A stretch of DNA of 9,881 nt from Methylococcaceae bacterium (GTDB taxonomy: Bacteria > Pseudomonadota > Gammaproteobacteria > Methylococcales > Methylomonadaceae): assembly GCA_947505055.1 (NCBI GenBank), contig CANNLO010000155.1, positions 1 to 9,881 of the forward strand, read 5' to 3'. Both the position numbers and the translations under genes were made by a program. Of the stretch, positions 1-9,881 are shown in pieces (position 1 is the stretch's first letter; every line of letters starts with the position of its first letter). The notes below the pieces were generated by a model. It saw only the letters and a list, made by a program, of their open reading frames with translations, made no database searches and had not been told where the DNA came from.

Positions 1-1451
1 AATTGCTTGGAACGGCCTCGATCTACCAGCTTATCAATCACGGGTTGACCTGTTTCCGTTTCAAGTTTCCCAGGTGCTTGGAATTCATCTAAAAAAAACA
101 TACCTCTGGGCGTACTGCTATCAGGTATCTTGGGACTATCCAATAGTGAAATGGAATACACCAATATGGCTCTGATAATGCCTGTGCTCATTTCACCCTC
201 AGTGTCATTAGGCTTAATAAATATGGTCTTTATTTTGTAATGACTATCGGTCATGAAGCGATATAGGCTAATTTTCTTCTGCGGTTTGTCGGCATCTACA
301 TACCAGAATCTTGCCAAATCACGCAGTCCACCCATAAATGACAACAGGTTAATCATTATTCCAGCAGTGGTGGCGTTCGACTGGACTTGGTTGGTTTCTA
401 CATTCAACTCCCCCACCAGTTTTAATGCTTCTGGGTAATAATTCTGCATCATATGGATGAGTTCTTCAGGACTGGATACTAATATATCGGCTATATCCTG
501 CCAGTTATAATTAGGCACACTTTTCACATCTTTAAAGTTGGCTCGCAAATACACTATCATGCCGACAAATATGGCACGTGCTGCATTGGACCACATCGGG
601 TCATTGCCTTTACTGGGGATAATGGCAGCGGCTAACTTCTTAATGAGTCCAATTGAATATAAGTCACGGGCAATGTCCCAGACATGACTCCTAGCATCGG
701 TAGGGTCTAAAATCGCACAGGTGCCATCTTTCTTGTAATAGGCTTTGGTGAATTCATATTTAGGGTCTAACACCACCACCTTTAATTTCTTATCAATCGC
801 ACTCTTGATGGCACTGGCCATGTATTGTGATTTACCTGTGCCTGACGCGCCAAATATCAAATGGTGACTGAACACCCGTTTCATGGATAAATCGACGTTG
901 TCTGAAATTCTGGTGAAGGCACCGTGTTTCTTCAGCTCATTCTTGAAGTGTGCCAATAATTTTGTTTCAGCTACTTTAAACTCATGCACCTGCAAGCCTT
1001 GCATGTGAACTTCAACTTGTTGCTGGATGGGATTTTGCCAGACCAGTTGCAAACCTTTAATAAAGCCAATAGCACCAGCCAACAACCCAAACCAAAACCT
1101 TGTAGTAATGGTGTAATCCAATTGGTAGTGCTGCAAGGTTTCTAAATAACGGTAGTAGACCCATGCCTCATGCTCAAAGCGTGTTGGAAAAATATTATTG
1201 ATTAAACCCTTAGACCAATACCCTAAATGGGTAAGGTATGACTGATTCACATATTCCGTGGCAGGTGGTCTGGGGAGTATGGGTAAATTGATTAACCATG
1301 ACAAACTCGTAGCAGCAACAAAGCCTATCAAGCCTAAGCCAATGGAGGCTACTGCGAAATCTTCATGGTAAATAATACGTTTATTGCCGTCATGCAGTAA
1401 TTGCACTGAGAACCGTGAGCGCCATAACAGTTGGGTAGTTGAGGTTGCCAT
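1..1451 (-). CDS. traD: Type IV coupling protein (VirD4/TraD/TrwB family), 3' end cut by window
   Basis: This is the ATPase that links the relaxase-DNA complex to the type IV secretion channel in conjugation; it acts at the inner membrane. 483 codons are visible, reading from the ATG at 1451 to the window edge without a stop. Two N-terminal hydrophobic segments lie at about residues 33-55 and 118-134, as expected for TrwB/TraD-type membrane anchoring. A Walker A motif, GASGTGKS, is at residues 201-208, and a Walker B motif, MFFLDEF, is near residue 452. The ATG shares its A with the stop codon of the upstream small gene (TAATG), which suggests translational coupling. The C-terminal part of the motor domain lies outside the window. 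The family call is firm; the symbol is by analogy only, since trwB or virD4 would fit equally well. Confidence 0.9.
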   Translation of the reverse strand, partial: MATSTTQLLWRSRFSVQLLHDGNKRIIYHEDFAVASIGLGLIGFVAATSLSWLINLPILPRPPATEYVNQSYLTHLGYWSKGLINNIFPTRFEHEAWVYYRYLETLQHYQLDYTITTRFWFGLLAGAIGFIKGLQLVWQNPIQQQVEVHMQGLQVHEFKVAETKLLAHFKNELKKHGAFTRISDNVDLSMKRVFSHHLIFGASGTGKSQYMASAIKSAIDKKLKVVVLDPKYEFTKAYYKKDGTCAILDPTDARSHVWDIARDLYSIGLIKKLAAAIIPSKGNDPMWSNAARAIFVGMIVYLRANFKDVKSVPNYNWQDIADILVSSPEELIHMMQNYYPEALKLVGELNVETNQVQSNATTAGIMINLLSFMGGLRDLARFWYVDADKPQKKISLYRFMTDSHYKIKTIFIKPNDTEGEMSTGIIRAILVYSISLLDSPKIPDSSTPRGMFFLDEFQAPGKLETETGQPVIDKLVDRGRSKQ

Positions 1452-1699
1452 TATGAAAACCACTTACCTAATATTTGACTTAATATCTCGCCTACGATGA
1501 CGGTGATACTACATGCCAAAATAAATGGCATTAAACATTTCAGACGGTAACGCGTGGTGGATAGAAAACGTTTAACTCTCACCACAAACATATTGAAGCT
1601 TCGGTAATCCCGATAACCTTCCATGGTGGCGAAGGCTGGGTCGTCTTCATATTTCTGCAGGACTTGTTGAAATTCTGCTTCGGTGTTTAATTTACGCAT
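1451..1699 (-). CDS. Small single-pass membrane protein of the transfer operon
   Basis: I do not recognise the family. The 82-residue product has a charged N-terminal half and one clear hydrophobic segment at about residues 55-77 near the C-terminus. It overlaps the coupling-protein gene by one nucleotide (TAATG), so it is probably co-translated with it and may be an accessory of the coupling protein or secretion channel; that role is inferred from position only. A longer reading from a GTG at 1732 is possible, but that codon overlaps the -10 hexamer of the best promoter (1731-1736). The ATG at 1699 has a GGAG Shine-Dalgarno at 1711-1714 with 11 nt spacing, so I chose the ATG. Confidence 0.7.
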   Translation of the reverse strand: MRKLNTEAEFQQVLQKYEDDPAFATMEGYRDYRSFNMFVVRVKRFLSTTRYRLKCLMPFILACSITVIVGEILSQILGKWFS

Positions 1700-1730
1700 G
1701 ACGTTCAATTCTCCATAGTGGGTTAAGTTC

Positions 1731-1758
1731 ACTATAAAAAATCAAAATCGTTTGTAAA
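1731..1758 (-). promoter_or_regulatory. Sigma70-like promoter of the small-membrane-protein/coupling-protein operon
   Basis: On the minus strand TTTACA (1758-1753) and TATAGT (1736-1731) are separated by 16 nt, each one mismatch from consensus. The predicted start, near 1724, leaves a short leader containing the GGAG at 1714-1711 before the ATG at 1699. Confidence 0.55.
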
Positions 1759-1779
1759 TGGCTGGGTGAAAATAAAGCT

Positions 1780-1811
1780 GGTGATGCATTACAATTGTTG
1801 CACAACTCACC
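1780..1811. promoter_or_regulatory. Nested inverted repeat upstream of the transfer promoter
   Basis: GTTG-CA-CAAC (1797-1806) is a 10-bp palindrome, bracketed by GGTGA (1780-1784) and TCACC (1807-1811). It lies about 20-55 bp upstream of the -35 hexamer at 1758-1753, where a regulator could bind. No regulator gene is visible, so its function is unknown. Apart from the promoter and this element, the 1733-1889 gap shows no gene. Confidence 0.3.
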
Positions 1812-1889
1812 TCTAGCGAAAGTTATTAAGTTAGCTATTCGTCTGAGGCGAAAAGACCGCTTTAGTTACAATAGTACACAATACTAGCT

Positions 1890-3005
1890 TTATAAACGGC
1901 GGTCGATGACCATGGCCGTTTTTTTACCTTCATGAACTTTAACACCTAGACCCCATGTGTATATAAAATCACTATTTTTCTCATACTGATAAACAATTAC
2001 CTCTGGCATGTTGCGCGGATCAAGCACGCTTCCCAAGCGCATTATGAGTGCTGATGAACATGCTAGGAGAAAATGTATCCGCTTAACACCTTGACCCTTT
2101 AATTGAACCATTAACAACTTAAATTCATTGCAAATTTCATTACAACTTTGTTCGTCAACAATACGCTGAAAGATTTTGTCTGATGGCTCCCACTCCACGA
2201 CAGAGAGGTTTGGGAATGCAGTTGAAATGTCGCCATCTGAAATCGGGTAAGTAATGCCTGATTTCAACACAACTTCGTCAGAAGTTACGTTTGTAGTTTG
2301 AGGCAAACCCCATGAGTGTGTAGGTTCACCATCGCTACTCCAAGCCCATCGGCTTTTATTTCGATCCCATTCCGCCCAATGAATTTTCCGCTCATCCTCT
2401 AATATGTTGCCTAATAGAAATAAAAATGGAACAGGCGCCAAACCACCTGCGCATATACTTATATCAGCTAAATCCATACCTCCAGTATGTTGATTTAATG
2501 TGCTCTCGATATTAACAATGTCGTTAGCAACGTCTTGTAGGTTATTCCCACCAACTAGTGCATCTCGTTTTCTGATAACAACAGGAATGGGCTTGCCGAT
2601 AACTTCCTTAGGTAGTGATGTATTTAAAGGTGTTGTTATTGCATTACTATATGCATCTATCTGTACGACCAATACAACTTTTCGGTTATTTTCACTTTCA
2701 GTCTGCTTTTGCAGCTTATGTTCTACACGAAGTGTCCATGCTGAACCAATTAATATTAGAGTTATACCAAAATACAAAAGGATTGTTGGAGTTTCCGCAG
2801 AACTTATTGAGCCATTAAAATCTAGCCATGAAGTTTGAATATTCAGCCAACCAACAAAATTAATACCTACACAAAACGTTAATAAAAGAAGTCCTGCTGA
2901 AATCAATTGAGGCCCAGCTCCTTTTACATAACGAGCTTTTATGTAAAAACGAACAAGGTCAATAATTTCATTTTTTATAGTGCTAACAGTTTTATTGCCA
3001 TTCAT
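1890..3005 (-). CDS. cap14: CBASS effector with two TM helices and a SAVED domain (Cap14-like)
   Basis: This is the predicted death effector of the CBASS operon. Two hydrophobic segments lie at about residues 33-54 and 72-92. A C-terminal SAVED sensor domain follows from about residue 108 to 371, recognised by the stretch around ISICAGGLAPVPFLFLLG and the late segment HFLLACSSALIMRLG. SAVED domains bind cyclic oligonucleotides, often trinucleotides. The TM-SAVED architecture is that of Cap14, for which membrane disruption has been proposed. The ATG overlaps the cap3 stop by 4 nt (ATGA), making it the last gene of the operon. The 371-residue length fits a two-TM anchor plus one SAVED domain. 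The domain assignment is good; the second-messenger identity is not readable from sequence. Confidence 0.85.
   Translation of the reverse strand: MNGNKTVSTIKNEIIDLVRFYIKARYVKGAGPQLISAGLLLLTFCVGINFVGWLNIQTSWLDFNGSISSAETPTILLYFGITLILIGSAWTLRVEHKLQKQTESENNRKVVLVVQIDAYSNAITTPLNTSLPKEVIGKPIPVVIRKRDALVGGNNLQDVANDIVNIESTLNQHTGGMDLADISICAGGLAPVPFLFLLGNILEDERKIHWAEWDRNKSRWAWSSDGEPTHSWGLPQTTNVTSDEVVLKSGITYPISDGDISTAFPNLSVVEWEPSDKIFQRIVDEQSCNEICNEFKLLMVQLKGQGVKRIHFLLACSSALIMRLGSVLDPRNMPEVIVYQYEKNSDFIYTWGLGVKVHEGKKTAMVIDRRL
1894..1925 (+). terminator. Hairpin with T7 tract, oriented as a plus-strand intrinsic terminator
   Basis: AAACGGC (1894-1900) pairs with GCCGTTT (1915-1921). An inner GGTC-GAT-GACC hairpin sits between them, and T7 spans 1919-1925. 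It lies within the last codons of the minus-strand effector gene. On the minus strand the hairpin is followed only by a weak TTTAT, so it may serve the CBASS operon poorly or act in both directions. No plus-strand gene ends here. Confidence 0.45.
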
Positions 3006-3499
3006 ATTTTTATCATTCCTAATGAGTGAACTCTTCCGTCACGCTGACCAAGCCAACAACCTATGTATTCAGTGCCAACAATAATATAAACAAGACCTGG
3101 GCCACTGTATGTAGCACAACGAAGCATGTTTTCTAGGTCGGCCCAATCAGTTCCAGATGGATGTGGCTTTGGTTCAGGATGGCTGTGCCATAAACCTATC
3201 AAGGTTCCACGCCCATCGGTTTTACTATGCCAAGCATCTGCCTTCACCTGATGTCCTTCACCTCTGTAAAAGCTGTGCCGCCTGCGCTTATCACCCCAAC
3301 ATGGTGTGGTAAATAATTCAGCTAACAAACCTTCAGTCTCTATGTCAGTGAAGCCGAGTATAAGCCCTCCTGCTTCACGAGATAATATGCTTATTTGGCG
3401 CCAGTTAGACAGTAATTTGATTAATGAAGTGCTTAGGCTGCCACGTATTTCATTGGAAATCTTCCATGCCCAATTACCATTACTTAACTGTTGCAACAT
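3002..3499 (-). CDS. cap3: CBASS Cap3, JAB/JAMM-family isopeptidase
   Basis: Cap3 is the metal-dependent protease that removes CD-NTase from the targets to which Cap2 attached it. The JAMM signature is complete: a glutamate in REAGGLILG (about E42) and H-S-H-P followed by S and D in the run WHSHPEPKPHPSGTDWAD (about H105, H107, S115, D118), which together form the zinc site. The product is 165 residues, typical for the family. I chose the ATG at 3499, with GGTGA six bases upstream; a TTG at 3505 would add two residues. The gene overlaps the end of cap2 by about 16 nt and its stop overlaps the effector start by 4 nt. Confidence rests on the motif together with the neighbours. Confidence 0.92.
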   Translation of the reverse strand: MLQQLSNGNWAWKISNEIRGSLSTSLIKLLSNWRQISILSREAGGLILGFTDIETEGLLAELFTTPCWGDKRRRHSFYRGEGHQVKADAWHSKTDGRGTLIGLWHSHPEPKPHPSGTDWADLENMLRCATYSGPGLVYIIVGTEYIGCWLGQRDGRVHSLGMIKI

Positions 3500-5094
3500 T
3501 GGCAATCACCACGAATATATTTCTCTCTAGAAACAAAAGAATGAGCACGGCCATTACGTAAAGCGTACCAGAATTCACTCGGTCGCAAATTTACCGCTTT
3601 AGCATCATCATCGGATCCTGCCCATCGGTGATAACCAACATCAGTATTAGGTAAAGATAGATCGGTGGCTAAAAGTGCAGTGCGAGTTGCTGAAACTGCC
3701 GAATATGGTGTGAAGGCACCACAACCGCTTATTTCTTGGAGTGGGGACTGTCCCGGCGCAAGCATAATAGTGCGTAATGTTTCTGTGGAGGTTGTGCTAT
3801 CTATTTCGCATAAGCACTCAAGGCAACCTTTTTCACTTGGTTGCATAGAGATGGCATGACCACCAAGATTAGAAGCCTCTACAAATGTACATACTAATTT
3901 GCATGTCCAACCTTCACGCCATGCGCGACGAAGCAATAGTCGTTCTCCTGCAATATCGCCTGTAGCCAGAACAATAACATCAAAATTATTTGGTTGAGTA
4001 TGTTCTAACCATTCTTGCAGTGTGCTTTGGTGTGGAGTTATTTCAACTCCTGGCATTCGATTACGTAGATGTACTGCCAAACCTTCTGCTTTGTTTTGAC
4101 CAATGAAATTACGAGATAAAACATGCCTACCTAAATTGTTCGCACTCATTTTGTCTGAATCCACAAGAGTTAAATGCCTAACACCTGTTTGGACGAGAAA
4201 CTCTGCAACACGCGAACCTACAGCCCCAACACCAACAATTGCAATTTTACGATCCAGACTTTGTTGCCCAACTCTGCGAGTTAGGTACTCATGGTATGCA
4301 GGCTCAAGCCTGTAAATATGAAACTGCTGTCCTCTTTCAACATTACCCCAGTAAAGCAAAATATGAGCTCCACCAAAGCGATTACTTATTCGCAAAATAA
4401 CACCACATCCTCTTTTGTTGTCTAAACGACATTGAGACTTGCTTGCTAGGTTTTGACGAAGTTGTTGCCACCAATCATGATTTGGTTTATTTATCAGTGG
4501 GGGTAGCTCTTCAATATCCACATCAAGAATAAAAAGTGAATGCCGCCGAGCTTTGTTATTTGCTTCAGGGCTATTGATACGGTCTATTTTCCATTGATTT
4601 TTGTCTTTTGAAAATACATCTGCATGAACACGTTGGTTGCTACCTAGCGGTGCATCTAGAGTAAGAGCAGGTATTCCAACATTACGAGCATAGGCTTCCA
4701 ACTCATCAGCAAAGGCACGCAAGCGCTGAGAGTTTGTGATTGCATGGTTTTCGTTCAATATTTCCATGCTTTTGCTAATAATTGCTTGTATTATCCCCTC
4801 ATAGTCTTCTGCATCGTAGTTCAGACCCTGCCTATCAAAGGCACAAATAGAACCATCTCCGCCAGTGTGAGGCCACCCCCAAACAGGTTCATCAGTTGCC
4901 CAGTGAAGGTATGGTAATGGAGTAAGAGTCCAGTTACATATAGGAAGATAAAATTGCCAAATTTGATTATTGCGCGTTAACTTAAAGTGCCATTGAACTT
5001 TATTTCCGATTTCATTGAAAGTGAGATCAGCGGCTCCTTCTTTAATAAGAGCCGCTTCAACAGCCACCTTGAAAACTGACTGTTCTGGTGTCAT
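3484..5094 (-). CDS. cap2: CBASS Cap2, E2-E1 ubiquitin-ligase-like conjugation enzyme
   Basis: Cap2 adenylates the C-terminus of the CD-NTase and transfers it through E1 and E2 cysteines to a target, which primes second-messenger synthesis. The 536-residue product has an N-terminal E2-like domain with the likely catalytic C84 in DGSICAF. A ThiF/E1 adenylation domain begins near residue 283 with the nucleotide loop GVGAVG (288-293), LVDSD (310-314) and NLGRH (320-324). The best candidate for the E1 cysteine is C458 in SGCGAFTPY. Cysteines 424 and 427 (CLEC) plus the C-terminal CQCC (531-534) look like a zinc site. The ATG shares one nucleotide with the CD-NTase stop (TAATG). Which cysteine is catalytic is inferred from the family, not proven. 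Confidence 0.93.
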   Translation of the reverse strand: MTPEQSVFKVAVEAALIKEGAADLTFNEIGNKVQWHFKLTRNNQIWQFYLPICNWTLTPLPYLHWATDEPVWGWPHTGGDGSICAFDRQGLNYDAEDYEGIIQAIISKSMEILNENHAITNSQRLRAFADELEAYARNVGIPALTLDAPLGSNQRVHADVFSKDKNQWKIDRINSPEANNKARRHSLFILDVDIEELPPLINKPNHDWWQQLRQNLASKSQCRLDNKRGCGVILRISNRFGGAHILLYWGNVERGQQFHIYRLEPAYHEYLTRRVGQQSLDRKIAIVGVGAVGSRVAEFLVQTGVRHLTLVDSDKMSANNLGRHVLSRNFIGQNKAEGLAVHLRNRMPGVEITPHQSTLQEWLEHTQPNNFDVIVLATGDIAGERLLLRRAWREGWTCKLVCTFVEASNLGGHAISMQPSEKGCLECLCEIDSTTSTETLRTIMLAPGQSPLQEISGCGAFTPYSAVSATRTALLATDLSLPNTDVGYHRWAGSDDDAKAVNLRPSEFWYALRNGRAHSFVSREKYIRGDCQCCNS

Positions 5095-6080
5095 TAAGCA
5101 GAAAGGCCGGTAACTGAAATTGAGCCCTTATTTTTTTTGGTGGTGTCATCTTTTGGCGGGATAGGAAAGTCACCCCCAAACTGCCCATTCAACAGCTTAC
5201 AGGCCTCGTGTGTATCAGCCTCTAGTTCAGCATCATTTAAAACGTCACGTAACTTAGTTAGTTTTGTCTTAAAATCTTCCATTTGGACATCTGTAACAAA
5301 TTGCATCAAGTCACATTGGGTTTGAACAGGAAGCCAAATTTCTAACCGATTACCCACCCATCGGTTCAATGTTCTATCTATTAAATTGCGAAGAGCAATC
5401 AAATCCAGAGCCTTACCATCCACGCCATCATAAACAGCTTGGAATTGCTGCATAGCCTCAATAGTCAGAGCAATACTAGGAATGTTTTTATGTCCAATTT
5501 TTAAATCACGCCAACGCTTTAAATAACGCACCAAACGTCTCCACTGATCCCGATCTGTACCGTTAAAAGCGTCAATGATGGTCTTGTTGAGTTTTTTTGC
5601 CTCGGATATTTCCCAGTAACGGTATTGATTGTTAGCAGGGTCGGTTTCACGCCCTCGCGCAAGTTGTGTTGCGCCTAAACTATCGGTGCAATAAATTGCT
5701 AAGTCTATATGAAGCTCGCGTTCGCCGTCTTTCATATACTCTACTGTGACACAGGGCTTGCGAATTAGCACCGTTCGATTGTTATGATTAAGAGCGTTTT
5801 TAACAAAGCGTTTGAGTGCCACGGGGTCAGGATAGTCGTTCGGCGTACAGTCAAAGATTATACCAATATCCATATCAGGATCGCCTAACAACGGGTTCAC
5901 ACCAGTACTAAGCTCATAACTGCCCTGATGAAAATAGGTGTAAGCAGGTGCGGCTAAATCTATCTTATCTTTCAGATTTTGTAGCAACGTATCGCGTTTC
6001 TCACGTAATAAATCGTTGCTATCTACATCTAGCAAAATTTTATTATGGAAAGAAATGAAATGGGATTGTGCATCAGACAT
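5094..6080 (-). CDS. CBASS CD-NTase (cGAS/DncV-like nucleotidyltransferase)
   Basis: This cytoplasmic enzyme makes a cyclic oligonucleotide alarm signal from NTPs. The nucleotidyltransferase core is clear: GSY at residues 53-55, followed by the acidic pair in DPDMDIG (D69 and D71) and a third acidic residue in ELHIDLA (D126). The remaining alpha-helical part runs to about residue 300. The C-terminal tail is lysine-rich and probably flexible, ending in TGLSA; a small C-terminal residue (Ala or Gly) suits Cap2-mediated conjugation. I chose the ATG at 6080, which gives 328 residues; a TTG at 6113 would add 11 hydrophobic residues and has no support. It is the first gene of the operon. The CD-NTase clade is not assigned: a SAVED effector suggests a trinucleotide product, but that is inference. 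Confidence 0.92.
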   Translation of the reverse strand: MSDAQSHFISFHNKILLDVDSNDLLREKRDTLLQNLKDKIDLAAPAYTYFHQGSYELSTGVNPLLGDPDMDIGIIFDCTPNDYPDPVALKRFVKNALNHNNRTVLIRKPCVTVEYMKDGERELHIDLAIYCTDSLGATQLARGRETDPANNQYRYWEISEAKKLNKTIIDAFNGTDRDQWRRLVRYLKRWRDLKIGHKNIPSIALTIEAMQQFQAVYDGVDGKALDLIALRNLIDRTLNRWVGNRLEIWLPVQTQCDLMQFVTDVQMEDFKTKLTKLRDVLNDAELEADTHEACKLLNGQFGGDFPIPPKDDTTKKNKGSISVTGLSA

Positions 6081-6116
6081 AAGGATTATTCCGTTCCATA
6101 TTAAAAATAACAACTC

Positions 6117-6146
6117 TTTATGTGGGGCTATTTTTCAGAAATTCAA
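6117..6146 (-). promoter_or_regulatory. Candidate promoter of the CBASS operon
   Basis: On the minus strand TTGAAT (6146-6141) and CATAAA (6122-6117) are 18 nt apart, a moderate sigma70 match about 40 nt upstream of the CD-NTase ATG. An inverted repeat, GGTTCG (6152-6157) with CGAACC (6182-6187), lies just upstream. Together with repeat R1 these account for most of what I can see in the 6081-6586 non-coding stretch. Confidence 0.3.
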
Positions 6147-6198
6147 GGGTTGGTTCGTACATTGTATTACACATAGCCCTTCGAACCGATTCACCAAC

Positions 6199-6469
6199 TC
6201 TGGTCAATCGTTCTACGCAACCCTACGGGTAAAATTTTAGTGCGTAGGGTCGTTAACCCCAACAACCATAAGCCTTTTCATTAAGGTTCTACGGTTCTAC
6301 TCAATATTATTAAATATATATAAAGGTAGGTATAAGTAACCGTTACTCGCTAATAGTACTATTTAGAATAAGTTTTGGTTTTCTGCGTAGAACCATAAAA
6401 CACCTCTGGAAGGCTGATAAACATTGACTTTGATGGTTCTACGGTGTTTTTCGTGGTGCGTAGAACCTT
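6199..6469. repeat. R1: first copy of a 271-bp direct repeat with an inverted-site array
   Basis: R1 aligns with R2 at a constant offset of 756 bp, with no indel and about 21 mismatches by hand count (about 92% identity). It holds GTTCTACGCA (6210-6219), ACCCTACG (6220-6227) facing CGTAGGGT (6243-6250), tandem GGTTCTAC x2 (6285-6300), an AT-rich core (6301-6325), the dyads AGTAAC-C-GTTACT (6335-6347) and AATAGTACTATT (6352-6363), TGCGTAGAACC (6384-6394), and GGTTCTACG (6435-6443) facing TGCGTAGAACC (6457-6467). The outermost sites form 10-bp terminal inverted repeats (GTTCTACGCA). It contains no ORF. It could be an iteron-type replication or partition region, a regulator-binding array, or a MITE-like element. 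Confidence 0.9.
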
Positions 6470-6536
6470 AACATTGGATAGGTAAAAATATTCTTCGCAG
6501 GCCTACAAAGTTAGGTAACATATCCCCCCAACAAAG

Positions 6537-6556
6537 GCTTTAATAAACGTTAAAGC
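6537..6556. promoter_or_regulatory. Inverted repeat upstream of the small plus-strand gene
   Basis: GCTTTAA-TAAACG-TTAAAGC is a perfect 7-bp inverted repeat with a 6-bp spacer, about 30 bp before the start codon. It overlaps a weak promoter candidate (CTTTAA 6538-6543, 17 nt, TATGAA 6561-6566) and may be an operator. Confidence 0.4.
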
Positions 6557-6575
6557 TGAGTATGAAAAATTTAAC

Positions 6576-6580
6576 GGGAG
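6576..6580 (+). promoter_or_regulatory. Strong ribosome binding site that fixes the start at 6587
   Basis: GGGAG lies six nucleotides before the ATG at 6587. This is the clearest Shine-Dalgarno in the window and a main reason to accept the plus-strand gene over the overlapping minus-strand frame. Confidence 0.75.
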
Positions 6581-6586
6581 CGCCGC

Positions 6587-6907
6587 ATGAGAAAGTCTAT
6601 CGAGGATACGATCAATTGGATTTATTCCGCTGAATGCGGTAACGGCATATTTATGATAGCCCACGAAATAGGCAACACAAAAAATATGGTGTTTTTCTTC
6701 ATAGACAAGCACGGGATTGCAACCATATTCCGCTCTATGGAACAATATATGCTCTATGTAATGGGCAAAGACTGCGAGCTAATTTACGTAAGTGAAAGCG
6801 AATATCCAGAAGAATCTAGAGATGAAGGTGTCGACTTTACTGATGCGTGGTTATACGAGCACATTTATAAAATAGACGAGACCTTCTCAAATGTTGGCAA
6901 GTCCTGA
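6587..6907 (+). CDS. Small cytoplasmic protein of unknown function between the two repeats
   Basis: I do not recognise this 106-residue protein. It is acidic, particularly in its last third (ESEYPEESRDEG). It has no signal peptide and no convincing membrane segment; NMVFFFID is short and more likely a buried beta strand. The alternation of hydrophobic strand-like segments in residues 20-70 suggests a small alpha-beta fold. It is the only plus-strand gene, lies alone between R1 and R2, and has its own inverted repeat and strong RBS. It is convergent with the SecB-like gene. Cargo between repeats beside a defence operon could be a small defence, antitoxin or anti-defence protein, but nothing in the sequence shows which. 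Its stop codon abuts the short repeat J1. Confidence 0.75.
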   Translation: MRKSIEDTINWIYSAECGNGIFMIAHEIGNTKNMVFFFIDKHGIATIFRSMEQYMLYVMGKDCELIYVSESEYPEESRDEGVDFTDAWLYEHIYKIDETFSNVGKS

Positions 6908-6912
6908 TTCAT

Positions 6913-6931
6913 CACCTAATCAAAACCCCAG
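6913..6931. repeat. J1: displaced copy of the traI 3' end
   Basis: CACCTAATCAAAACCCCAG matches the last codons and stop of the relaxase gene at 7879-7897 at 18 of 19 positions, in the same orientation. Similarity continues leftward (TGATTCA against TTATTCA) if a 3-nt TCA gap is allowed. Here it codes for nothing and sits directly after the small gene, as a duplicated target or attachment site would. Confidence 0.6.
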
Positions 6932-6954
6932 TAATGTTGTTGCTCGCGCTTACA

Positions 6955-7225
6955 TCTGGTCAATCGTTCTACGCAACCCTACGATTAAAATTTTAGTGCG
7001 TAGGGTTGTTAAGCCCAGCAACCACAAGCCTTTTAATTAAGGTTCTACGGTTCTACTCAATATTATTAAATATATATAAAGGTAGGTATAAGTAACCGTT
7101 ACTAGCTAATAGTACTATTTAGAATAAGTTTCAACATTCTGCGTAGAACCATAAAATTACTCTGGAAGGCTTATAAACATTGGCTTCGACGGTTCTACGG
7201 TGTTTTTCGTGCTGCGTAGAACCTT
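6955..7225. repeat. R2: second copy of the 271-bp direct repeat
   Basis: R2 is the partner of R1. It keeps every site intact: GTTCTACGCA (6966-6975), ACCCTACG/CGTAGGGT (6976-6983 and 6999-7006), GGTTCTAC x2 (7041-7056), dyads at 7091-7103 and 7108-7119, TGCGTAGAACC (7140-7150), and GGTTCTACG/TGCGTAGAACC (7191-7199 and 7213-7223). The mismatches with R1 lie in the spacers, with clusters at 7132-7136 and 7157-7159. R2, J1 and the terminator below account for most of the 6908-7326 non-coding stretch. Confidence 0.9.
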
Positions 7226-7267
7226 GAATATGCAGTCAATAGGCGTACGGGTAATATTTATTACATC

Positions 7268-7313
7268 AAAAAATAAAAACTGAAATTTGAATCCTTTTTA
7301 TCGGAATTTTCAG
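7268..7313 (-). terminator. Intrinsic terminator of the SecB-like gene
   Basis: On the minus strand an imperfect hairpin (7313-7280; CTGAAA paired with TTTCAG plus inner AT and CC/GG pairs) is followed at once by TTTTTATTTTTT (7279-7268). It starts 13 nt after the stop codon at 7327, so the gene is probably monocistronic. Confidence 0.65.
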
Positions 7314-7326
7314 GTTGAGATTTTAT

Positions 7327-7758
7327 CTAATCAGTAAATTCTGCAGTAGGCAGCATCAACATTCCAGGTAAAGCTCTGCTTGTTAAAGTTGAAACAATTT
7401 CACAGACACATCCGTATAGGATAGAGGTTCCATTCACTTCAACAATATCCTCTCGATCTTCTTTATCAATTTCATCTGAGACCTGGAAAGTTCCAACAAT
7501 CCCAACATCAATAGTATATGGGCACAACACCCCATCCAAATTAGGAATTGAGAGTTTAAATGTAATCATAAAATCTTTTGGATCATTTGATTGACCCGAG
7601 GCTAAAACAACACTAGTCTCAGTCCGCATGTCGACACCATTAAAATCAAAATCCATAGCGGTGAAAGTCCGCGCCTCTGGATCGGCAAACACCTTTAACA
7701 TTTCTACAGATACTTTTGTAAAAAAGTAACTTTTAAGCTGCAGCGGACTCGGTATCAT
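7327..7758 (-). CDS. SecB-like chaperone family protein
   Basis: This 143-residue protein resembles the SecB fold family. The end, LYGCVCEIVSTLTSRALPGMLMLP followed by TAEF, matches the SecB pattern of a helix, SR-[GA]-x-P and a closing L-x-P-x-x-F. The preceding strands (ITFKLSIPNL, YTIDVGIVGTFQV) match the SecB beta sheet. It lacks the long acidic C-terminal tail that housekeeping SecB uses to contact SecA. SecB-like chaperones of this kind occur in toxin-antitoxin-chaperone and phage-defence contexts, binding unstable client proteins. No toxin-antitoxin pair lies beside it here, so its client is unknown. It has its own promoter and a strong terminator. No Shine-Dalgarno is obvious before the ATG at 7758. 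The fold call is by eye and moderately secure. Confidence 0.65.
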   Translation of the reverse strand: MIPSPLQLKSYFFTKVSVEMLKVFADPEARTFTAMDFDFNGVDMRTETSVVLASGQSNDPKDFMITFKLSIPNLDGVLCPYTIDVGIVGTFQVSDEIDKEDREDIVEVNGTSILYGCVCEIVSTLTSRALPGMLMLPTAEFTD

Positions 7759-7788
7759 ATGTGTAATAAGTTGTGTCGTTAATAGTGG

Positions 7789-7816
7789 ATATTATTATTT
7801 ACCACAATGGTAACAA
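7789..7816 (-). promoter_or_regulatory. Promoter of the SecB-like gene
   Basis: On the minus strand TTGTTA (7816-7811) and TAATAT (7794-7789) are 16 nt apart, which puts the transcript start about 25 nt before the ATG at 7758. A palindrome covers part of the -35 and the spacer. Confidence 0.5.
7799..7813. promoter_or_regulatory. Operator candidate within the SecB-like gene promoter
   Basis: TTACCA-CAA-TGGTAA is a perfect 6-bp inverted repeat with a 3-bp spacer, placed between and overlapping the promoter hexamers. A repressor dimer bound here would block RNA polymerase. No copy of the site is seen elsewhere in the window, and the regulator is not identified. Confidence 0.5.
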
Positions 7817-7877
7817 AAGCAATTATTATGCGGTTAAGATTTATTCGGGTCTCACAATCCTATGCAATTTATCTTAT

Positions 7878-9881
7878 TCACCTAATCAAAATCCCAGAAC
7901 CCTTCAATTTTCCAGCAACCTTAGCTTTCCGAGCAGATTTACGTGGCTTAACACTCACCTCAACTAATACAGGCTCAATTATCGGCTGAACAACTTCATG
8001 GGCTTTCACCACTGAATTAAGCTTACCTTGCACAATGGCTTTCAGCTTCATGACCATCGGATTGCTTGATAACTTTCCCAGTCCACCCAGTTTCAATCGT
8101 TCTATGCTGGATAGTGTGTGATTTACCACTTCTTCAGCGCGAGCCATCATCAGCTGATTCAAATTGGGTTGAGCCACTTTTTCTTTCAGCGTTTTACCCA
8201 AAGCAATCAATGACGCTCGGTTGGATTCTCGTTTGAAACTTGCCACTACTTCATGGTGTTCAGATTGGGTGGTGTAGAGACTGGTGTTGAACCTTGCTCT
8301 GGTCATGCCCACGTTAAACAACTCCTGATTATTATTGAAGGCATTCTCACCATAAATGTAAGTCTGGTTTACCGTCATGCCCTGCGATTTTTCAAAAGTG
8401 ATGGCATAGGCTAATCGCATCATCTGTGGGTTTCTGATAGTTTTGATTTTATCGTTATCAAACTGAATGGTGAGTTGCCCATTACTCATGCCAATAACGG
8501 TGCCGAAGTCACCATTTTTATATTCATCTTTGTTGGTTTTTTCCATGACGATTCTATCGCCTATAAAGAACCGACCTTTTCTGTTTTCATAGCAATCACC
8601 AGCCAACTCACCCGATTCAATCCTCTTGTCCTGAATAATGCCATTGATTCTGTCGATGGATTTATTGGTGGAGGTGAGTAGCAACTTGTCCTTAAATAAA
8701 TTTATATCAGTCAAATAAGCTTCACTGATAGCTGAAATGGTGTCGGTGGTGGTGATATGCTGATTGTTGATATTGCCACTTGTTTCCAACAACGCAAGGG
8801 CTTTCATGACATGTGCGCCATCAGCTTTTACCTGTTTCATCTCATCTGATTGATATACGGCTTTAAGTGCGGTGGTTTCTGCCACTTGTAATGCCACAGC
8901 ATTTTTCTGCCTGCGAATTTCAAGCAAGTAATTCACCTGTGGTTTAATCTCAGCGTCATTTAGAAACTCAGCCAAAGTATTACCAGTGCTCACCGATTGA
9001 ATCTGATTGGGGTCACCAACTAATACCACCTTGGCATTAGCAAGGTGAGCAGCACTCAATAATTGGTGCATATTCCGCGTGCCAACCATGGAAGCTTCAT
9101 CTAAAAATATAATGTCATTGGCAGTGAGCTGAACTTTGCCATTGGCTACGTCAAGATTAAGCTTGTCTATGGTGGCGGTGATGTTGCAATCTGTTTCATT
9201 GGCTAATGCGGTGGCCACTTTACCAGTAGGCGCTAGACCAATGGTTCTGTATCCATATTCAGATTTATTCGCAATCTTGGTTGCCCAGCCAGTGGCTAAT
9301 GATTTACCCGTGCCAGGCAAGCCAATCACAATCTGCCCTTTTTTATCATTGAATACCGTTTTGATAAAATCCTGTTGCTCGGCATTCGGGGTGATACCTG
9401 TTTCATTCACAATGGCGTTGATTTCAGTTTGGATATTTTTCACACGCAAATCCTGTTTGGCATTGAATAATCCGCGCATAAGTGAAACATTCTGCTCTTC
9501 CATCGTAATGAGTGCGTGGGTGGTGTAATTGCATTGTTGGTTGCCATTGCTACCAGCTTGCAGAATCGCCTTGGATTTAGTGAGGGTGCGTAGCAATCTG
9601 TCGGCTAATTTTTGTGCTTTGGCACCATGTCCGTGGGTTTTGGCTAACTCAATAATCAAGCCGTTTCTGGTAAAAAATGGTGAAGTATTAGTGAGGGTGT
9701 CCAATATGGCCTGATTGGATTTAGGCTTGAATGCAACACCCACTTCACTCTGTGGTTTCATCTGCAAACCCATCGTTGCCACATCGCTGGATAACTGCAA
9801 ATCTTTAAGTGGCTTGGCTTGATTCTTCTTGGGTTGCTTAATGGCACTCCAGACATCGGCTCGGTGTTTTACACTGGATAT
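7878..9881 (-). CDS. traI: MobF-type relaxase-helicase, C-terminal part (TraI/TrwC family)
   Basis: This is the conjugative relaxase that nicks oriT and unwinds the transferred strand; only its SF1 helicase half is in the window. The frame is open to the right edge, so the 5' part with the relaxase tyrosines is missing and 667 residues are visible. Motifs in order, numbered from the edge: Walker A GLPGTGKS (about 187-194), Walker B IFLDEAS (about 258-264), motif III VGDPNQ (about 288-293), then YAITFEKSQG (motif V) and VGMTRAR (motif VI), as in RecD-like helicases. The NGDFGTVIG region before motif V resembles the SH3-like insert of this family. The basic C-terminus (KPRKSARKAKVAGKLKG) suits DNA binding. 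A TTG at 9800 is not the real start. The symbol is by analogy; trwC would be equally apt. Confidence 0.92.
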   Translation of the reverse strand: MSSVKHRADVWSAIKQPKKNQAKPLKDLQLSSDVATMGLQMKPQSEVGVAFKPKSNQAILDTLTNTSPFFTRNGLIIELAKTHGHGAKAQKLADRLLRTLTKSKAILQAGSNGNQQCNYTTHALITMEEQNVSLMRGLFNAKQDLRVKNIQTEINAIVNETGITPNAEQQDFIKTVFNDKKGQIVIGLPGTGKSLATGWATKIANKSEYGYRTIGLAPTGKVATALANETDCNITATIDKLNLDVANGKVQLTANDIIFLDEASMVGTRNMHQLLSAAHLANAKVVLVGDPNQIQSVSTGNTLAEFLNDAEIKPQVNYLLEIRRQKNAVALQVAETTALKAVYQSDEMKQVKADGAHVMKALALLETSGNINNQHITTTDTISAISEAYLTDINLFKDKLLLTSTNKSIDRINGIIQDKRIESGELAGDCYENRKGRFFIGDRIVMEKTNKDEYKNGDFGTVIGMSNGQLTIQFDNDKIKTIRNPQMMRLAYAITFEKSQGMTVNQTYIYGENAFNNNQELFNVGMTRARFNTSLYTTQSEHHEVVASFKRESNRASLIALGKTLKEKVAQPNLNQLMMARAEEVVNHTLSSIERLKLGGLGKLSSNPMVMKLKAIVQGKLNSVVKAHEVVQPIIEPVLVEVSVKPRKSARKAKVAGKLKGSGILIR
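7879..7897. repeat. J2: traI 3' end, parent copy of J1
   Basis: CACCTAATCAAAATCCCAG covers part of the relaxase stop codon and its last codons, and is repeated (18/19) at 6913-6931. Being inside a gene end, this is the likely original copy. Confidence 0.6.

Follow-up and report, generated by a model that had tools for sequence, protein, structure and literature searches.

A 271-bp repeat rich in inverted half-sites, a candidate border element for interchangeable cargo in rare TraI/TraD islands

Two copies of a 271-bp sequence, referred to below as R, stand as direct repeats in a 9,881-nt contig of a Methylococcaceae bacterium (CANNLO010000155.1, assembly GCA_947505055.1), which was analysed at its full length and is called here the window. 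The cargo of the window includes a full type II CBASS, with cyclase, E1-E2, JAB and effector genes together (PADLOC/Pfam matches), and the question raised by the locus is what a long, repeated, non-coding sequence does beside such genes, and whether it is anything more than a local duplication. The two copies, R1 and R2, form one 271-nt family (92%, spacing 756 in the repeat search) and share 250 of 271 bases with no indel, as the initial annotation had described them (colinear, without indels, about 92% identical). The features of the window are collected in Table 1.

Table 1. Features of the window, with positions counted from its first base
Feature	Position	Strand	Basis or remark
traD-type coupling protein, incomplete at window end	1..1463	-	start inferred from MAG; DNA 92.3% to MAG; Pfam on MAG protein
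93-aa gene before traD	1451..1732	-	conserved in sister island (92.5%)
CBASS effector, 2TM-SAVED	1890..3005	-	
CBASS JAB protein	3002..3505	-	
CBASS E1-E2 protein	3484..5094	-	
CBASS cyclase (CD-NTase)	5094..6113	-	immediately left of R1
R1, first copy of 271-bp repeat	6199..6469	+	repeat search and direct count
Left arm of outer inverted pair in R1, GTTCTACGCA	6210..6219	+	
Dyad in R1, ACCCTACG-N15-CGTAGGGT	6220..6250		
AT-rich, best conserved centre of R1	6284..6376		
Dyad in R1, GGTTCTACG-N15-CGTAGAACC	6435..6467		
Right arm of outer inverted pair in R1, GTTCTACGCA	6457..6466	-	
ORF106, 106 aa	6587..6907	+	between R1 and R2
Second copy of last 20 traI bases, far side of R2	6912..6931	-	19/20
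Unit of R2 and 143-aa gene	6932..7877		between two traI ends
R2, second copy of 271-bp repeat	6955..7225	+	repeat search and direct count
143-aa cargo gene	7327..7758	-	between R2 and traI; weak PADLOC match PD-T4-9_C (E 8e-5)
Native 3' end of traI, partner in 20-bp pair	7878..7897	-	
traI, 3' part, TraI-type relaxase-helicase	7878..9881	-	runs off window

The strict motif TTCTACG occurs ten times in the window, always within R1 or R2 (three times on the plus and twice on the minus strand of each repeat), against a mean of 0.63 and a maximum of 5 in 200 dinucleotide shuffles, none of which reached ten. The half-site is better described as GGTTCTACGCA-like, with seven to eight copies per repeat around the AT-rich core. 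A matrix at a threshold of at least 8 bits finds eight sites in R1, seven in R2 and a single weak one elsewhere in the window (7853, 9.7 bits), counts that are no independent test for R1 and R2, as the matrix was derived from 34 half-sites of the same five copies of R (three further ones are described below). The "seven to eight" TTCTACG cores per repeat of the initial annotation thus hold for the relaxed motif (8 and 7), the strict motif giving five in each. The two dyads of R1 have equal spacing, and its outer inverted pair, GTTCTACGCA, is an exact match of 10 bp. Homology among the five copies extends 11 bases past this pair on the left and 1–3 on the right, so GTTCTACGCA is not the exact left terminus of R; of the "10-bp terminal inverted repeats" proposed earlier, the exact pair near the ends stands and the terminal position of the left arm does not. 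In the five-copy alignment the AT-rich centre is almost invariant, and the half-sites are conserved while the DNA between them varies. An Rfam search of the window gave no family at gathering score (best match E 0.14, none at E below 0.1), and R was rejected as an intrinsic terminator, none being found in 6100–7330.

Of the small genes beside the repeats, ORF106 matches nothing in Pfam or PADLOC; a search of 5.8 billion proteins gave just two close relatives of it (90% and 82%), and its predicted structure is too poor for use (mean pLDDT 58.7). The 143-aa gene in addition weakly matches RcpA, a chain of solved structure (E 0.01). TraI of the window was compared with plasmids, where 3254 records were obtained, all below 60% identity.

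Further copies of R are rare. Across 84,980 species genomes, a hairpin pattern picked out 14 loci. Three lie on JABFRO010000003.1, a contig of the Methylophilaceae MAG P-RSF-NP-02, and contain R at 87–91% identity (blastn, E 0.01). The other 11 loci were rejected as copies of R, being unmatched by blastn at E 0.01, and the letters of eight of them were also read (all but L002, L003 and L011). On one of the unrelated loci, an Acidimicrobiales contig (L013, 5088–5413), two copies of a GGTTCTACGG...CGTAGAACC hairpin lie 289 bases apart amid other repeated inverted sequences; blastn relates neither to R. The whole MAG (G001, 3.2 Mb) holds exactly three copies, at 127746–128013, 143115–143384 and 145799–146066, all on the minus strand, and one 18-base match taken for chance; all three lie inside one island of 37.4 kb, with none elsewhere in the 3.2 Mb. 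Among sampled genomes R was detected in 1 of 187 of the family, 1 of 399 of the order and 1 of 369 of the class, the same MAG each time in sets that overlap, and the order and class scans scored just two of its three copies. No match was obtained in plasmid, phage and E. coli collections; in viral contigs a single pattern match was a sequence without R, and two core patterns then gave none. Searches of the open-access PMC literature listed no title or abstract start that describes an R-like element. The initial annotation had named several copies per replicon, each beside different cargo, as what would support its reading, and occurrence as a single tandem duplication as what would speak against it: the MAG island carries three copies within 37.4 kb next to different cargo, and R is therefore more than a tandem pair. 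The observation is real and goes beyond a duplication at one place; to judge from the searches, R is a previously undescribed family of repeats, associated with cargo borders in islands of a rare type.

The MAG island (116654–154071) is bounded by 53-bp direct repeats, 96% identical, the right one of which is the end of a tRNA-Lys gene, and it begins with a tyrosine integrase. This integrase is the sole recombinase seen among 19 island proteins scanned, a subset of the ORFs of the island, with no transposase and no second or integron integrase. R was rejected as the att site of the island integrase, the surroundings of the 53-bp tRNA-Lys att being unlike R by eye. The cargo includes a PDC-S16 protein beside a CBASS cyclase and a 4TM effector (L021, 11618–13673), which by gene content we take to be a type I CBASS. 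Apparent metal-efflux genes are also present (L021, 56–6389, by eye). The island family, which carries a relaxase and a coupling protein, may be mobilizable. Between the 236-aa and 121-aa genes before traI, a repeat-rich intergenic stretch (L021, 7207–7572) contains direct and inverted repeats; it is a candidate oriT of the MAG island, and a better candidate than R.

In 54 kb of MAG DNA around the island, outside R, there is one strong half-site (18.6 bits, at 126934), the next reaching 12.7 bits and the remainder 9.5 or less. The lone half-site, which may be a remnant of R, precedes a 247-aa gene, and the third MAG copy of R starts 8 bases after the end of that gene, so that the 247-aa gene too is bracketed by R-type sequence. 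This gene (L020, 14994–15737) has no Pfam or PADLOC match and is a candidate cargo gene in its position between the half-site and R.

Comparison of the two loci bears directly on what R delimits. The traD side of the window (1–1861) matches the MAG at 92.3% and the traI side (7876–9880) at 93.3%, and between them only R matches at E 0.01; judged by this nucleotide identity, the window is a sister of the MAG island. In the direction of traI, the order in the window is traI, 143-aa gene, R2, ORF106 (reversed), R1, CBASS II, 93-aa gene and traD, and in the MAG traI, R (9 bases after the traI stop), PDC-S16, cyclase, 4TM effector, R, a 232-aa gene (reversed), 93-aa gene and traD. From traI to traD the window thus holds type II CBASS and two small genes, and the MAG the cyclase-4TM CBASS and others. 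In both, R separates or adjoins the gene sets, and five of five copies point the same way with respect to traI. No counterpart of the 143-aa gene was found by tblastn at E 1 in the fetched MAG stretches, and ORF106 as a necessary partner of R is unsupported, the same search finding none. TraI is matched at E 1e-20 in 5 of 187 genomes of the family, one of which (G064) has TraI at 58–60% and TraD at 52% and keeps its transfer genes without R, and TraD in the order (1/399) and TraI in the class (1/369) added no further islands at the limits used. The G064 relative has dispersed intergenic repeats of its own, among them a promoter-like 47-nt family with seven copies in L030 and a 39–64-nt family in L031 (3172–4488).

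Two further observations suggest that DNA has been exchanged at R. The first concerns the end of traI. In the window, a second copy of the final 20 traI bases, matching at 19 of 20, stands beyond R2 (DNA score 18; the highest of 300 shuffles is 16). The pair encloses R2 plus the 143-aa gene, not R alone, and these two may have been inserted as one unit. At the protein level the far flank in the window does not stand out, its score being equalled or exceeded by 6, 16 and 206 of 300 shuffles in the three frames. In the MAG, the DNA beyond the traI-proximal R can be read in frame, up to a stop, as a degraded C-terminus of traI (protein score 71, a value reached by none of 300 shuffles; DNA score 29, shuffled maximum 20.5). 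The far flanks of the traI-proximal R of the window and the MAG share 19 of 20 bases, three bases from R. With a traI tail beyond R in both islands, the traI-proximal R appears to mark a joint of past recombination in each; the same test at R1, MAG 127746 and MAG 145799 was negative. The second observation concerns R itself. The five copies have 17 informative two-state sites. All four combinations occur in 70 of the 136 site pairs, at least four recombination events are needed, and adjacent sites agree better than they do once their order is shuffled (12 of 16 compatible, p = 0.027). Segments of R thus seem to have passed from copy to copy, inside one island or from one island to another, although with five copies part of the pattern may be repeated mutation.

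Taken together, several copies per island, none found outside it, constant orientation, different cargo, mosaicism and the joint at the traI tail are consistent with R being a non-coding cis-element of tRNA-Lys-integrated TraI/TraD islands that marks the borders of interchangeable, mostly anti-phage cargo between traI and traD, an account for which the chances stand about even. It draws on two islands and five copies of R, the exchange being deduced from their comparison; among the islands compared, no pair of orthologous sites differed in the presence of R or cargo, and no exchange event was directly seen. In such a scheme, direct copies of R would serve as homology (or as sites) for the gain, loss or swap of units such as a gene plus R, the cargo between two direct copies could leave as a circle or be traded between islands, and a multimeric DNA-binding protein may occupy the seven to eight half-sites, some of which form equally spaced dyads. 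As the 19 island proteins scanned included no dedicated recombinase, ordinary homologous exchange is the likelier route, ahead of a site-specific system of its own. The strong conservation of the core points to some function that depends on its particular sequence, and counts against a border that acts by homology alone.

A possible though unlikely explanation is that R is a regulatory array (an insulator, promoter or silencer with operator half-sites) coupling cargo expression to the state of the island. The pattern of conserved half-sites in variable DNA would suit operators; in the direction of traI, three of the five copies precede a gene start (CBASS II, PDC-S16/CBASS and a 258-aa gene), R1 lies between diverging genes, and the dispersed intergenic repeats of the G064 relative may be a parallel, as they look like promoters. 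Against it, R2 and MAG 145799 lie between converging gene ends, and neither of the two window copies, which were scanned, contains a sigma-70-like -35/-10 pair or a terminator-like site.

A bolder reading is an undescribed system of site-specific cassette-loading, in which R is a 271-bp attP-like site with eight half-sites that travels with each defence set and is recombined by a putative protein, units of "gene plus R" being stacked beside traI; this we consider rather improbable. Improbable, too, is a multicopy site for replication, partition or single-strand initiation, used after excision or transfer, to which the AT-rich core between half-site clusters, the constant orientation and the DUF5906 helicase-type protein encoded on the MAG island would point. 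The single strands of R do fold better than shuffles (z from -2.0 to -4.4, with -2.9 and -3.7 in separate runs), but both strands fold alike and three helices show no compensatory changes, a result that says little either way, as 18 of 26 pairs in two of them never vary. The copies moreover adjoin cargo, not the helicase gene, and R as a basic transfer site is weakened because the G064 relative, with TraI at about 58%, has no R.

It is quite doubtful that R is a non-autonomous, MITE-like transposable element with several insertions, an option of the initial annotation that has lost ground. The exact inverted pair near the ends of R and its sharp edges in unrelated flanks are what such an element would leave; on the other side stand the lack of any copy outside the island in the MAG, the non-terminal left arm, the lack of a transposase among the proteins scanned, and the flanks of the five copies, where no target-site duplication next to the 271 bp was seen by eye. 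That the closely spaced R1 and R2 arose by a simple duplication on the spot and serve no function is scarcely credible given three further copies in another island and the conservation of half-sites and core. Among the four mechanisms listed in the initial annotation, the recombination target fits best, with the partition or iteron locus and the regulator-binding array still in play at the low standing given above.

Several known systems resemble the proposed border in part. Integron gene cassettes consist of a gene plus attC, and share with the units seen here a non-coding recombination site with inverted repeats, direct orientation and unrelated cargo. In contrast to attC, R is about 270 bp long, with seven to eight half-sites and an AT-rich core, and it comes without an integron integrase among the 19 proteins and without an Rfam match at E below 0.1. 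The pdif (XerC/XerD) sites of plasmids, of about 28 bp, are likewise short repeated sites that flank exchangeable gene modules, but no dif-like sequence was seen in R by eye. Phage-type attP sites, with arm-type and core sites, are of similar length and have half-sites in both orientations flanking an AT-rich core, whereas the island integrase uses the 53-bp tRNA-Lys att, unlike R in its surroundings by eye, and no second integrase was seen among the proteins scanned. The cargo hotspots of ICEs and IMEs (e.g., SXT/R391) combine tRNA integration, a relaxase, a coupling protein and variable cargo at fixed intergenic places; after literature searches, none is known to us that is bordered by a multicopy element like R. 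The Frpo/ssi single-strand promoters of plasmid leading regions are intergenic, multicopy, folded as single strands, in one orientation and near defence-related cargo (PMC11541004), as R is. They contain -35/-10 elements, and the genes they serve on the transferred strand are counter-defence genes (PMC11541004), whereas no -35/-10 consensus was found in R1 or R2, two of the five copies of R precede no gene in either direction, and its cargo is defence. R had no match in the plasmid collection, which was searched as a whole.

As a border element, R would bear on the question of how anti-phage cargo is replaced in mobile islands. A recognisable repeated border would make cargo units countable by sequence search and would point to a route of recombination. 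R could also serve as bait for new defence genes: ORF106, the 232-aa gene of the MAG and the 143-aa gene, all without a name or with a weak one, lie between or beside its copies.
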